A stretch of DNA of 64,000 nucleotides from Acidimicrobiaceae bacterium (lineage in GTDB: Bacteria > Actinomycetota > Acidimicrobiia > Acidimicrobiales > Poriferisodalaceae): positions 124,001-188,000 of the forward strand of contig CAJJCB010000027.1 in assembly GCA_905182565.1 (NCBI GenBank). The letters are read 5' to 3'. The position numbers and the translations under genes were made by a program. Positions within the stretch are counted from its first letter, which is position 1, and every line of letters begins with the position of its first letter. The notes below the pieces were generated by a model, which saw only the letters and a list, made by a program, of their open reading frames with translations, was not told the DNA's origin and searched no databases. Shown here piece by piece: positions 5,299 through 20,109 of this stretch.

Positions 5299-7118
5299 TC
5301 ATCTTCTTCAACAATTTCAGCGTCTACTACATCATCATCACCATCAACCGGAGCTCCAGTATTCTCAGCACCGGCCTGAGCAGCAGCAGCTTCATATAAT
5401 TTTTGGCCAAAAGCCTGGCTGACCGTCGTGAGAGTTTCCGTCGCAGCACGAAGCGCTTCCAGGTCCTCTCCCTCTAACGCAACTTTCAAAGCGTCAAGAG
5501 CAGCATCAATGTCAACTCGGTCCGCTTCCTCAATATTTTCTGATTGCTCAACTAGCACTTTTTCAGTTTGGTAGACAAGAGTCTCAGCGTTATTTCGGAC
5601 TTCAGCTGCTTCACGGCGCTGCTTATCTTCTTCAGCATGAGTTTCAGCATCTTTAATCATTGTCTCTATATCGTTGTCATTTAAAGTTGATTGGCCAGTA
5701 ATAGTTATTGATTGTTCCTTATTAGTAGCTCGATCTTTCGCAGAAACATTCACGATGCCATTGGCGTCAATGTCGAAAGTAACTTCAATTTGAGGAACTC
5801 CCCTCGGAGCAGGGGGCAAATCAACTAATTGAAATTTACCCAAGGTCTTGTTTCCCGAAGCCATTTCACGTTCACCTTGTAAAACATGGATCTCAACAGA
5901 TGGCTGCATATCATCCGCTGTACTGAAGGTTTCGCTTCTTTTTGTCGGAATTGTCGTATTTCTTTCTATTAACCGTGTCATCACCCCACCTTTGGTTTCA
6001 ATTCCAAGGCTGAGTGGCGTTACATCAAGTAAGAGAATATCTTTTACGTCACCTTTTAAAATCCCCGCTTGGATAGCTGCTCCAACTGCCACTACTTCAT
6101 CGGGATTCACACCATTATGTGATTCTCGGCCAGTCATTTCAGTCACTAGATCTTGGACAGCCGGCATACGAGTAGAACCGCCAACCATAATGACATGGTC
6201 AATATCTGCGTTAGATAACTTCGCATCTTTAATTGCCTGCTCGAAGGGGTTTCTGCAACGACCTACTAAGTCTGCAGTAAGTTCCTGAAACTTTGAGCGC
6301 GTTAACTCGTAGTCAAGGTGCAAAGGCCCGCTATCTGTAGCAGTCACAAATGGCAAATTAATTTGTGTCGTTTGCTTTGATGACAAATCTTTTTTAGCTT
6401 GCTCGCTAGCTTCTTTTAATCGTTGCAGAGCCATAGCATCGGCACTCAAATCAACGCCATGATCGCCCATAAATGAAGTGACTAGCCAATCAATGACTCG
6501 CTGATCCCAGTCATCTCCACCTAGCTGAGTGTCACCAGCTGTTGACTTTACTTCAAAAACTCCATCACCAATCTCTAATACTGATACATCGAATGTCCCG
6601 CCACCAAGATCAAACACCAAAATAGTTTGGTCTTCAGTTTCTTTATCTAATCCATAAGCCAACGCAGCTGCAGTTGGCTCATTTATAACTCGTAGAACCT
6701 CAAGACCAGCGATTTGTCCCGCTTCTTTGGTAGCAGTTCGTTGAGCATCATCAAAATATGCAGGCACTGTGATAACAGCTTGTGTTACTTCGTCACCTAA
6801 ATATTGTTCAGCGTCTCGCTTTAATTTTTGAAGTACTCTCGCAGCTATTTCTTGCGGGGTATAAGCTTTTTCGTCAATTTCTACGGTCCAGTTAGTTCCG
6901 ACATGTCTTTTTACTGATGACAATGTTCGTTCTGGATTTGTTACAGCTTGCCGCTTGGCGACTTCTCCTGTTAAAATTTCGCCACTTTTAGAAAAAGCAA
7001 CAATAGAAGGCGTCGTTCTATCTCCTTCAGCATTCGCAATTACAGTAGGTTCCCCGCCTTCCATTGCTGCTACCACTGAATTTGTTGTTCCTAGATCAAT
7101 ACCAACTGCTTTAGCCAT
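5295..7118 (-). CDS. dnaK: Hsp70 chaperone DnaK
   Basis: ATP-driven folding chaperone and, in actinobacteria, co-repressor with HspR. The start at 7118 gives 607 aa beginning [14 protein letters not shown] and is backed by a perfect AGGAGG seven bases upstream; a longer frame to 7166 only adds residues unlike the family. Seen in order: phosphate loop IDLGTTNS (7-14), the [13 protein letters not shown] segment, [11 protein letters not shown] (phosphate 2), MVGGSTRMP (adenosine motif), the [11 protein letters not shown] linker start, and a helical lid with an acidic tail ending [11 protein letters not shown]. Typical of the family in length. First gene of dnaK-grpE-dnaJ-hspR. Confidence 0.97.
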
Positions 7119-13339: not shown

Positions 13340-14578
13340 TTATCTGGATCCGACAACCGCAACATCAGGTTGATTCATAAATCGTTCCGGAATAGAAATC
13401 CGAAACACTTCTGCAGCATTTAGTCCTAAAATTTTCGCCCTATTTGCATCAGTTAAATTCCCCATAGATCGTTCTATTGCCTCAGCAGAATGAGGCCATG
13501 AACCCTCATGGTGTGGATAGTCGTTAGCCCACATAAAGTTATTTGTGAGCCCATGTTCAGTTGCAAGATCAAGACCGGCCGCATCTTCTTGAAAAGTCGC
13601 AAACCCTTGTCGTTTAAAATATTCGCTTGGTAGCAACTCTAATTTTGGACGAACAAACATATGGTGTTTTAAATAGGCTTCATCCATCGCTTGGATTGCC
13701 CATGGTACCCACCCAATTCCAGCTTCAACACTGCCAAAACGCAGTGTTGGAAACTGTTCAGCTACCCCTGAGGCACAAATATTCGCTATTGGTTCCATGT
13801 TCTGAGCTAACGAATGAACCGCATAGTTAATTATTGCTCCACCGCGACTACGAGACGTACGAGGGTCTCGACCAGTCGAAATATGAAAGGTTACTGGTAA
13901 ATCAACCTCAGTTATACATTCCCAAAGTGGATCAAACTCACGTAAATTGTAGTTAAGCGCTTCGTGATCTGGTGCTCCCCAAATTGGCTTACTTGGTAAT
14001 TGGAAACCTTTGAAACCCAAACTCGCGCAGCGCTCAATCTCTGAGATTGCGTCAACTAGTGTTGCAGGAGCAATACAAGCCATCGGCATTAACCGATCAT
14101 TGTATTCGCCAAACGTCTCCCAAGCCCAATTATTGTATGCGACACACATAGCATGCGAAAATTCCGCATCTTGTGTAGCCCACATCGTTAAACCTTTGTT
14201 TGGAAAAATAATTTCTGCGTCAACACCATCTGCCGTTAAATCGTCAAGCCTTTCTTGCGGGGTATACCCAGCTTTGTTCCTTAACTTATCTTGACCACTA
14301 AATTGAATATCATTCAACTTCAAAGGTGTTCTAAAGCCTTCGGTCTTTTGAAATTTTTGCCCGCCAGACCCGATAATTACACCTGGTAAACGATCCTGAT
14401 ACTTTAGGTCCATTCTCGTAGACCACAAATCCTTAGGCTCTTGAGCATGCCCATCCGTCGAAACCATAAAGTACTTATTTTCCGCCGACGGGTGTGGTGA
14501 TCTATCCCACCCATTTGATCCTGGGCTATCAAGCCGCCATTCATTATTCGAATCTGGGACGGGTATGACAACAGACAT
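13340..14578 (-). CDS. Amidohydrolase family 2 (metal-dependent TIM-barrel hydrolase)
   Basis: Member of the amidohydrolase_2 superfamily, which includes decarboxylases and hydrolases of aromatic ring-cleavage products. The 412 aa protein has an early D-x-H (VSTDGHAQEP), a mid-barrel histidine in VTFHISTGRD, and a C-terminal metal aspartate in WANDYPHHEGSWP. The typical order of barrel ligands is thus visible. The substrate is unknown; relatives act on carboxylated aromatics or their products. No pathway partners are adjacent; it is inserted between rplI and dnaB, which are closer neighbours in mycobacteria. It is a single gene with no close upstream partner. Confidence 0.8.
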   Translation of the reverse strand: MSVVIPVPDSNNEWRLDSPGSNGWDRSPHPSAENKYFMVSTDGHAQEPKDLWSTRMDLKYQDRLPGVIIGSGGQKFQKTEGFRTPLKLNDIQFSGQDKLRNKAGYTPQERLDDLTADGVDAEIIFPNKGLTMWATQDAEFSHAMCVAYNNWAWETFGEYNDRLMPMACIAPATLVDAISEIERCASLGFKGFQLPSKPIWGAPDHEALNYNLREFDPLWECITEVDLPVTFHISTGRDPRTSRSRGGAIINYAVHSLAQNMEPIANICASGVAEQFPTLRFGSVEAGIGWVPWAIQAMDEAYLKHHMFVRPKLELLPSEYFKRQGFATFQEDAAGLDLATEHGLTNNFMWANDYPHHEGSWPHSAEAIERSMGNLTDANRAKILGLNAAEVFRISIPERFMNQPDVAVVGSR

Positions 14579-16193: not shown

Positions 16194-16535
16194 TCAGACA
16201 GCGGCAACAGTTGTGTCAACGTCACCGATTAGGCCGCGACGCTCTGCTTCATGATCAGGAAGACGAATGAGCTTATGACGGACCACATTATCAGATATCT
16301 GTAAGGCTTTTTCTACTGGGTCCATGGCCCCGCCTTCAGCTAGTAGCTCTACAACAGAGTAGTAACCTTCAGTTTTGTGATCGATCTCATAAGCGAATCG
16401 ACGTCGACCCCAGAAGTTCACACTAGCGATAGTTGCTACTTCTTCGATACGGGTTCGAACTTCTTTAAGCTCTTCTTGAACCGCTACATCATCGAGGCCA
16501 CCATCATGGATGACCATTAATTCGTATACACGCAT
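16194..16535 (-). CDS. rpsF: 30S ribosomal protein S6
   Basis: Small-subunit protein that pairs with S18. 113 aa: MRVYELMVI, the FWGRRRFAYEI segment and EGYYSVVEL are typical of S6; a short C-terminal tail is present. The start has AAGGAGGAAG upstream. First gene of rpsF-ssb-rpsR-rplI, preceded by a GC-rich structured leader that could be an S6:S18 control element. Confidence 0.95.
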   Translation of the reverse strand: MRVYELMVIHDGGLDDVAVQEELKEVRTRIEEVATIASVNFWGRRRFAYEIDHKTEGYYSVVELLAEGGAMDPVEKALQISDNVVRHKLIRLPDHEAERRGLIGDVDTTVAAV

Positions 16536-16709: not shown

Positions 16710-18275
16710 TTATTGGTCTCTATTAAATTCGCCAAAAATTTGGTTAAAAATTAAAGCTGCACAACAGCTTTCTTGATTTTTATCTTTTTCAGAGTTACGT
16801 GGAACTGTTATCACCCCCATTGAATATCTTTCATTGAACCCAATCGCCCATTCTTTTCGCACATTCGAGTCACTCCCCAATATCCCAAAAATTTGGGGCA
16901 TTTGTGAATCAGAACCAGTCCCCACCGCCACCGAAGAACTCAGCTCTAAAAATTTGAGGGCGTCTTCCACTAGAACTGAAGTTGACACAGTCGACCAATC
17001 ACTTCTCGGTGCAAAAGTTATTTTTTCACCATCATCCCATTCCATAAGGATTTTTTTACGTCTAAATTGCCCATCGTTGGCAAAAATAGAAACCACCTCA
17101 GTTCCTTGAACTAGCGATAAATACTCGTCATACAAATAAAATTCCCTAGGCATCCCCGTAACCAATTTGTCTAAAGCCCCGATTATCTCTATACGAGGTA
17201 GTTCTTTCTCCATAAGCCCCGAAAGAATATCAGAGGTTGTAAACATGGATCGCACGTGACCCTGATCATCTAATACAACTACACCAACATCAAAGTCCTG
17301 AGTTTGTTCTTCTCTCAACCTCTTCACAGTCGAAGCAACAATTTTTTGTATCTCAAGATCAATAGTCGTTTTTATAAACAGAGTTGAAGTCAAACTCTTT
17401 CGTTCGCCTAGCTCCTCTATGATCGATGATTTAGCAAAATTAACTGCATTAGCTAGACCAAAAGACGAATCAATGAGAATCAATGGACTAACAATTTTTT
17501 CAAAAATTGTCATCTCTGATAATGACGAAGCTTGAACCTTTAAAAATTCAGCTTCAGTAATGTACCCTTGCTCAAGCATGCCGAAAAGTATTTCGCCAGC
17601 ATGAATTTCAGCTAATTCAACAGTTTCATGGTCACGTGCGACAAGAAACAGCGCTGCTAAATACACAGCCTGGTCAACATCTAAGTTTGAGGCACTAACT
17701 CCAAACCACGCTTGCGCTCCCGCCTCAACCCCAAATGACTCCCTACCAAATGGGATCACATTTATATAACGCTCTAAAATTTCTTCCTTAGAAAGAGTTC
17801 GTTGGATCCTCAAGATAGATGCCGCCTCACGTACCTTCCTCCAACCCGATAGATCATCGTTTCCGTTTACTAAACGAAGATACTGCTGCGATAACGTCAA
17901 ATGATTGAGCCCATTAGAACCTTGTAAATCCTTCCAAGATGCTCTAACTAATTCACCAAACTCATAATTACCAGTCAAAAAATTAGGGTCGACCGCCACC
18001 ATAAGTGCATCTACAGCGACAGGAGAAATTTGTTCAAGAGTGATAGGGATATAGTTTTTTTCTGGAGTCAGTGTAGCAATTGGTATATCACGTCGATCCA
18101 GTATCAGACCTTGTGCATCAACGTTCATCGGTTGCGGAATTGGCAGCGACCCGATAACTCGAATGCCTACACCAGCCCCAAAAATGGCTATAAGTATGCT
18201 TAAACAAAGAAAAATCCGCCATTTGTCCAGCACCGACTTTTCACCTGTTGGGTTAGCCAAAGAATTTTCAGTCAT
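16710..18275 (-). CDS. Degenerate class A penicillin-binding protein (PonA-like pseudoenzyme)
   Basis: Membrane protein with one N-terminal helix (about residues 19-42) and a GT51 glycosyltransferase-like domain. Intact parts: RKVREA (R146, E150) and KEEILERYINVIPFGRESFG with the following AWFG. Lost parts: the catalytic Glu of the EDxxF motif is Val95 (AVDPNF), the GGSTITQQ motif reads NHLTLSQQ, and no SxxK, SxN or KTG transpeptidase motif is recognisable. The C-terminal EWAIGFNERYSMGVITV still resembles the segment after KTG in PBPs. The 521 aa frame is open throughout. The start is ATG; GTG at 18308 would add 11 residues. Position beside DUF5318 and the rpsF operon matches mycobacterial ponA1. 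It is probably a non-catalytic envelope protein. Confidence 0.75.
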   Translation of the reverse strand: MTENSLANPTGEKSVLDKWRIFLCLSILIAIFGAGVGIRVIGSLPIPQPMNVDAQGLILDRRDIPIATLTPEKNYIPITLEQISPVAVDALMVAVDPNFLTGNYEFGELVRASWKDLQGSNGLNHLTLSQQYLRLVNGNDDLSGWRKVREAASILRIQRTLSKEEILERYINVIPFGRESFGVEAGAQAWFGVSASNLDVDQAVYLAALFLVARDHETVELAEIHAGEILFGMLEQGYITEAEFLKVQASSLSEMTIFEKIVSPLILIDSSFGLANAVNFAKSSIIEELGERKSLTSTLFIKTTIDLEIQKIVASTVKRLREEQTQDFDVGVVVLDDQGHVRSMFTTSDILSGLMEKELPRIEIIGALDKLVTGMPREFYLYDEYLSLVQGTEVVSIFANDGQFRRKKILMEWDDGEKITFAPRSDWSTVSTSVLVEDALKFLELSSSVAVGTGSDSQMPQIFGILGSDSNVRKEWAIGFNERYSMGVITVPRNSEKDKNQESCCAALIFNQIFGEFNRDQ

Positions 18276-18332
18276 AGCTGTTGTTCCCGGCAGAGTACCT
18301 CTCTCCACTCAACATATTGAACTATTTATAAT

Positions 18333-18735: not shown

Positions 18736-19977
18736 TCAATTCTTCGAGGAAGAAGACCAATCCTCAACGGCTTTAATTGCCTCTTCACGTGACATTAGAC
18801 CAACTTCTAAAATAAGTGCATTTAAAAAATTGATTGCTCTACCCACTATTGGCCCATCACCAACAATCCCCATTATTTCGTTTCCATCTAATGGTGATTG
18901 AGCACCTCTATTCCCCTCCGATTCAATAATCTGAGTGAAAACACCGAGTAAGTTTTGTGACGGGTTCTTTTTAAACACTTTTAAAACGGCAAGCGCTTCG
19001 GGAAATTCATCTCCCCAAAAAAACAAAATTCGTCGCACGTTAGGCTCACTGGCTTCGTCTATCGAAGAGATCTGGTGAGTGGCTTCTATAACCCTGCCCA
19101 CTTTTTTAGCCAAATTATTTGAGGCCCTCATATCAACTAAAAGAACTCTTGCCTGCTCTCCAGAAGTCACAATCGGGTATAGGAGGGTCGCCCAACTCAG
19201 CGACAACTCATCGCTAATATCATTAACAGCCAATTCTGGAACAGAAACAACACCATCATAGCCTTCAATGACTAGGCCCAGTAACCCTGTTTGTTCCAAA
19301 AATAGTAGTCCTTTCGTTGGATTTTCAACCTTAAGTAATTTTTTTAACTCTTCGATTACGCGCTCTTTTGAAACAATCGATATTCGATCTCTAAGCCGTT
19401 CTACTGCGTCCATCAGATCTACCCCGGGGACAAGCTGGTAACCCGCCATAAATCGAGCAGCTCTCAACATTCTTAAAGGATCATCACTGAAAGATACTTC
19501 AGGATCTAAGGGTGTTCGTAAGACTTTTCTCTCTAAGTCTAATTGTCCCCCAAACGGATCTATTAACTCCCACTCAGGAATCTTTATCGCAATTGAATTA
19601 ACCGTAAAATCACGTCTCGACAAGTCATCTTCAATAACCTGCGAAAACTGAACGCTAGGTTTACGTGAATTGCTTACATAATTTTCAGATCGATGGGTTG
19701 TTATTTCAATAATCTGAGAATTTTTACGGATACCAATCGTTCCAAATTTTGCTCCTTGATCCCAAATTGCATCTGCCCAACCAGTCACTAACTTCACTAT
19801 TACGTCAGGTTCAGCATCAGTTGTAACATCAATATCATTATTTAATTTTCCCAATAACAGATCTCTAACAACACCCCCAACTAAATAAAATTTATATCCA
19901 GCACCATCAAATTTATGAGCCAAAGCACCAACTTGAAGATCGAGTTCTAGTTTTTGAGCTTCTAAAACCTTCTTCAT
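18736..19977 (-). CDS. cca: CCA tRNA nucleotidyltransferase
   Basis: Adds or repairs the 3' CCA of tRNA. The start is placed at the ATG at 19977 (413 aa); a TTG ten codons upstream is less likely. Seen: the nucleotidyltransferase signature YLVGGVVRDLLLG and NNDIDVTTDAEP, with catalytic aspartates, then RRDFTVNSIAI, PLRMLRAARF, and the ERVIEELKKLL helix. The HD phosphohydrolase segment of many homologues seems eroded: where LLHDIGK is usual the sequence reads SWATLLYPI. It lies on the opposite strand to carD. In mycobacteria the homologue pcnA also borders the DUF6049-murJ run. Confidence 0.9.
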   Translation of the reverse strand: MKKVLEAQKLELDLQVGALAHKFDGAGYKFYLVGGVVRDLLLGKLNNDIDVTTDAEPDVIVKLVTGWADAIWDQGAKFGTIGIRKNSQIIEITTHRSENYVSNSRKPSVQFSQVIEDDLSRRDFTVNSIAIKIPEWELIDPFGGQLDLERKVLRTPLDPEVSFSDDPLRMLRAARFMAGYQLVPGVDLMDAVERLRDRISIVSKERVIEELKKLLKVENPTKGLLFLEQTGLLGLVIEGYDGVVSVPELAVNDISDELSLSWATLLYPIVTSGEQARVLLVDMRASNNLAKKVGRVIEATHQISSIDEASEPNVRRILFFWGDEFPEALAVLKVFKKNPSQNLLGVFTQIIESEGNRGAQSPLDGNEIMGIVGDGPIVGRAINFLNALILEVGLMSREEAIKAVEDWSSSSKN

Positions 19978-20109
19978 AAAGCTGATATTACAGGGGTCTT
20001 GTAACAAGGCTGGTAAAAAACTTTAGGTGATTCACTAGTTTTCTTTGGTAATTACACAAATCATCTGGCACTCTAGGACTTCCCGGATCGTCGTCGTGGA
20101 GATAAATTA

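Follow-up and report, generated by a model that had tools for sequence, protein, structure and literature searches.

Can a gene that sits in the place of a bifunctional penicillin-binding protein (PBP), but has lost both of its active sites, be kept for something other than catalysis? This question is raised by the gene at positions 16710–18275 (−) of the 64 000-nucleotide stretch analysed here (the window), which a first-pass annotation had described as encoding a catalytically dead PonA-like protein. Having compared it with its counterparts in 39 genomes of aquatic actinobacteria from the same GTDB family (order Acidimicrobiales), we estimate the probability that it is a conserved pseudoenzyme derived from the class A PBP of the rpsF locus at about 0.9.

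The gene, its product and its locus

The reading frame at 16710–18308 (−) is uninterrupted and has 532 codons counting from a GTG at 18308; because the orthologs start with MTENS or M[ST]DP, the ATG at 18275 is the likely start, which gives a 521-aa product and agrees with the open frame of 521 codons reported earlier. Residue numbers below are those of the 532-residue version, and residue and motif positions are on the same (−) strand. Judging from its sequence, the 521-aa product is a membrane-anchored class A PBP homologue, with a single predicted N-terminal transmembrane helix (residues 26–52 of the AlphaFold2 model, 18153–18233) and a GT51 domain (Transgly, PF00912; residues 77–221, 17646–18080), which is supported by a Pfam score of 94 bits and by PDB alignments and is indeed recognizable, as had been claimed. 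The window protein gave no Pfam match to the transpeptidase domain (PF00905), and the NCBIfam class A PBP models, including TIGR02074, match it far below their cut-offs. A search of Rfam across the locus gave no match, and promoter and terminator scans gave nothing above chance.

The AlphaFold2 model obtained with a 44-row alignment has a pLDDT of 81 and a pTM of 0.76 but leans towards the fold of live PBPs, since these were included in the alignment. In it, a single N-terminal helix is followed by a helical domain resembling GT51 and by a transpeptidase-like alpha/beta domain of reduced size. In line with the superposition proposed in the first-pass annotation, the structures most similar to it are those of class A PBPs (3dwk with a Z-score of 24, others with 20–23), and the modelled GT domain aligns to that of Aquifex (2oqo) with a TM-score of 0.80 by target length, although the likeness of a predicted fold does not in itself show function. 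A first model, built from 17 dead homologs alone (pLDDT 59), was poor and was discarded.

The gene order pcnA-DUF5318-PBP-rpsF-ssb-rpsR-rplI is the same in genera with dead and with live copies. In the window, the DUF5318 gene (PF17249; 18333–18722, −) adjoins the PBP gene upstream and marks the locus wherever it has been assembled, the gene for a pcnA-type nucleotidyltransferase (18736–20007, −) provides a syntenic anchor, and rpsF (16194–16535, −), followed by ssb, rpsR and rplI, provides another one downstream. The dead gene occupies this position in at least 28 genomes from six genera (g1, g2, g4, g5, g6 and g7); it was not found in five other genomes of these genera, in which the DUF5318 gene is likewise missing or located close to a contig end. 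The live orthologs, found in the genera g3, g8, g9 and g10, are 640–776 aa long and have every GT51 and transpeptidase motif intact (EDR[DG]F, GGSTITQQ, SxxK, SSN or SAN, and KTGTT), whereas the dead copies have ∼ 506–540 aa, with longer open frames in g5. A second, independent genome of the window's genus carries the same gene at 77% identity, which, along with the same losses in 27 homologs, excludes chance or an assembly error. Searching 248 genomes of the order, we found no dead homologs of comparable score outside the family: the window protein scored 591 bits, and matches outside the family reached at most 197 bits, in frames of live-PBP length.

Lost and retained residues

The catalytic Glu of the EDxxF motif, which we take to be E83 of Aquifex PBP1A and E233 of Escherichia coli PBP1b, is replaced in the window protein by Val106 (codon GTC at 17991–17993; PDB alignments), the Val95 of the first-pass annotation, which counted from the ATG. 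This column holds Leu, Val or Ala in 27 of the 27 dead homologs aligned, which also have no transpeptidase core; all 27 retain the adjacent Asp. None of the dead homologs has a Glu at the catalytic position, so that an intact catalytic residue did not emerge in another alignment register. In E. coli PBP1b, mutation of the first GT51 Glu (E233) blocks GT activity and polymerization (PMC4632607). Motif II, earlier reported as broken, has indeed changed from GGSTITQQ to LNHLTLSQQ (17880–17909; LNHLTLSQQY versus QGGSTITQQY), with its GGST part lost. Glu161 (17826–17828), the equivalent of the second GT51 Glu (presumably E140 in Aquifex and E290 in E. coli), is kept in the window protein and in 17 of 17 members of the main dead clade and is lost in genus g5. 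The RKVREA motif, listed earlier as intact, is present in the window protein together with the PFGR..FGVEA block.

Between the RA[ML]VGG strand and LGTQEVS of the transpeptidase half, the live orthologs have 121 aa, compared with 32 aa in the window protein, 27–32 aa in the main dead clade and 40–45 aa in genus g5, which indicates that the SxxK/SxN core has been deleted and not simply mutated. In the window, the remnant of this deletion, from which the SxxK...SxN segment of ∼ 90 aa is missing, lies at 17124–17234. At the position expected for KTG there is ILG (16875–16883), in a strand that is otherwise still recognizable, and the following W487-x-x-G490 (16839–16850) is invariant across dead and live copies. 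The window protein therefore contains no SxxK, SxN or KTG, and the segment after KTG remains similar, both as stated in the first-pass annotation; its description of the protein as full-length does not hold, given that ∼ 90 residues with SxxK and SxN are gone and the live orthologs have at least 640 aa.

All 17 sequences of the main dead clade have D107, Q141 and E161 and also keep the R189/G193 block, and all dead copies have in common D107, E179, G188, R189, G193, A196, G203, G301, D317, Q321, D347, W487 and G490. These invariant residues belong mostly to the fold and the linker, whereas most of the substrate-binding ones have disappeared: the GGS segment, the motif III RK and the FxxH His are gone from the dead clade, the Lys after QQ has mostly become Arg, and the substrate-binding residues of the GT groove are degenerate and differ between the dead subclades. 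Compared with the live class A PBPs of the rpsF locus, the dead proteins thus share the locus, the membrane anchor, the GT51 fold, the linker and the outer transpeptidase strands, but differ in the replaced Glu, the broken motif II, the deleted SxxK/SxN core, the lost KTG and the shorter length. The pseudo-PBP of genus g5 has additionally lost Q141 and E161 and represents a separately eroded version.

A single loss followed by purifying selection

In the maximum-likelihood tree, all dead copies form one clade (support 100/99), sister to the live rpsF-locus orthologs, and AU tests reject the grouping of either dead subclade with live copies (p < 0.001), with the caveat that the tree has long branches, which the program flagged with a warning. 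Given these branches, the changes shared by the dead copies, namely the LDPx[FY]L-type replacement of EDxxF and the deletion of the same transpeptidase core, are useful as independent support, and the part of the tree containing the intact paralog shows the identical order of genera (g5, then g1, then the rest). Monophyly of the dead copies means that there was one loss of catalysis, after which the gene persisted. Class A PBP homology and descent from this locus are attested by the PF00912 match, the tree, the synteny and the fold similarity; synteny around rpsF and the tree likewise uphold the earlier proposal that the gene descends from the actinobacterial bifunctional PBP. A phage origin was considered and rejected, as phage records contained only weak partial GT51 matches.

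The dN/dS ratio (ω, Nei–Gojobori) is well below 1, at 0.13–0.32 in the dead genera, with bootstrap 95% limits from 0.12 to 0.42 in eight pairs and with both the GT and the transpeptidase halves constrained; the live orthologs have ω of 0.11–0.14. No internal stops or frame lesions were seen in any match across the 28 genomes, so the frame decay in relatives that would have spoken against selection did not turn up. The window gene and that of its congener differ by 247 changes, among which ∼ 9 stops would be expected if they were random and none is seen. In the same genome pairs, ω is 0.16–0.32 for the dead copies and 0.03–0.08 for the intact class A paralog, a 3–6 fold difference. Constraint on the dead copies is thus relaxed yet clearly purifying, and the earlier claim of selection as a pseudoenzyme stands, borne out by the lesion-free genomes, the low ω, the single dead clade and the second class A PBP described below, once it is qualified by this relaxation. 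Stops, frameshifts and ω near 1, which would characterize a pseudogene, are all absent, and what is found instead is the clade-wide loss of catalytic residues (27/27) followed by purifying selection. These pseudo-PBPs are a pseudoenzyme branch of the class A PBPs.

The relaxed ω, the long branches and the divergent catalytic residues might also be expected of a decaying relic, whose frame stays open by chance or through its coupling to the downstream ribosomal genes. We consider this very unlikely, and the ω values already largely refute it: the upper limits do not exceed 0.42 in any of the eight pairs and both halves are constrained. Further, the loss predates the split of the six genera and yet no copy has acquired an internal stop, and in the genomes where the gene was not found, the DUF5318 gene is missing too or located near a contig end.

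Other peptidoglycan synthases and possible roles

Every genome of the dead genera that has the locus encodes a second GT51 protein (∼ 190–205 bits). The genome search suggested in the first-pass annotation has thus revealed another class A PBP, which is intact (EDxxF, GGSTITQQ, SxxK, SSN and KTG) in all 11 genomes examined, the window's own (2.65 Mb, 95.6% complete) included. The latter genome additionally encodes MreB, three SEDS polymerases and three class B PBPs. In live genera the usual number of class A PBPs is three, compared with two in dead genera (counting the dead one), so that activity has been lost where the set is smaller. The only enzymatically intact class A PBP of the window's genome is encoded at G000:C24:60193–60696 (L001), and the third class A PBP type of the live genera (e.g. 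L118 and L120) seems to be absent from the dead ones. Positions 6072–7112 of the window (G000:C27:130072–131112) give a weak third match to the MreB family (65 bits, in a 627-codon frame), which is probably a protein of the Hsp70/DnaK type.

The following scenario would account for these data. Both activities of the bifunctional class A PBP encoded at the pcnA-DUF5318-PBP-rpsF locus would have been lost once, in the ancestor of the six genera, the second class A PBP having taken over the enzymatic role before or during this loss, and the gene would then have been retained as a pseudoenzyme. Its product, which is presumably expressed and should be inactive in vitro, would cross the membrane once and comprise a GT51-shaped domain, an interdomain linker and a trimmed transpeptidase shell. 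By binding active synthases, either the intact class A PBP or pairs of SEDS and class B proteins, it could act as a scaffold or allosteric regulator and so preserve the non-catalytic part of the ancestral job. The retention of fold and linker residues and the loss of substrate-binding ones suggest that the shape has been retained more than the pocket, and we favour, as somewhat probable, a pseudo-PBP that is tethered to the membrane and scaffolds or regulates active synthases. The degenerate GT groove and the 3–6 fold faster evolution imply, however, that the interaction surface may be small or that another function has arisen, and the further losses in g5 (E161 and Q141) weaken the case for any single mechanism shared by all dead copies. 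A more specific version, in which the dead protein is a dedicated allosteric subunit of the remaining active class A PBP or of a SEDS polymerase, is a tentative idea that we regard as doubtful; if true, it would make for a clade-wide obligate pseudoenzyme–enzyme pair in peptidoglycan synthesis, built from two class A PBPs.

The same pattern of retained residues bears on the other possible roles. The invariance of D107, Q141 and E161 throughout the main dead clade (17/17), together with the preserved R189/G193 block, could mean that binding of lipid II or of a similar lipid-linked glycan has persisted in the GT51 groove without polymerization, making the protein a sensor or decoy. A groove selected for binding, however, should have kept the GGS segment, the motif III RK, the FxxH His and the Lys after QQ, and genus g5 has lost Q141 and E161 as well, which makes such a role unlikely. 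Residual glycosyltransferase activity, with some other residue as the base, would fit the presence of E161 and much of the GT fold in the main clade; it is extremely improbable, as the missing Glu is the essential catalytic residue of GT51 (PMC4632607), the dead copies share no alternative Glu in its place and their substrate-binding residues have been lost. Fast evolution, long branches and the separately diverged g5 version are also what a neofunctionalized structural protein of the membrane or envelope, unrelated to the regulation of peptidoglycan synthases, might display. Such a change of function appears quite unlikely to us, since D317 and Q321 in the linker and the WxxG after the KTG position are still invariant, suggesting that the old domain arrangement matters.

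A scaffolding or regulatory role would have parallels in known systems. The contribution of Mycobacterium smegmatis PonA2 to rod shape requires neither of its catalytic sites (PMC10547480). PonA2 is likewise an actinobacterial class A PBP with a catalysis-independent contribution; however, it is a normal enzyme, whereas here a whole clade is devoid of catalytic sites. Activators of the Lpo/FtsN type are non-enzymatic envelope proteins that modulate peptidoglycan synthases (PMC4632607), which is the role proposed here, but they are not derived from PBPs, whereas the pseudo-PBP is a PBP descendant with a putative modulating role. In Corynebacterium glutamicum, class A PBPs and RodA can partly substitute for each other during polar growth (PMC8262863), which by analogy makes it plausible that one class A PBP could be freed from catalysis. 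Our literature search, which covered few subscription journals, found no account of a pseudoenzyme family of class A PBPs. Class A PBPs have been suspected of catalysis-free jobs that, in normal enzymes, are hard to separate from catalysis. Evolution appears to have separated the two in this case, removing the active sites and keeping the protein, with live orthologs available in sister genera, and this offers a natural system for testing what class A PBPs do beyond making peptidoglycan. For annotation, a GT51 match in these genomes does not necessarily denote a working polymerase.

The surroundings of the locus vary to some extent. In genus g5 (L124, L125 and L126), pcnA and the DUF5318 gene are inverted relative to the PBP-rpsF block, and the PBP gene still precedes rpsF. 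One bin contains the DUF5318-pseudo-PBP locus twice (G017:C21 and G017:C28; L006 and L043) and is probably mixed. Between rplI and dnaB, the window carries an amidohydrolase-like gene (13340–14578), which is found in the same place in g1, g4, g6 and g7, mostly preceded by an extra ORF of ∼ 305 aa, and was not seen there in the g5 and g9 loci that were read.
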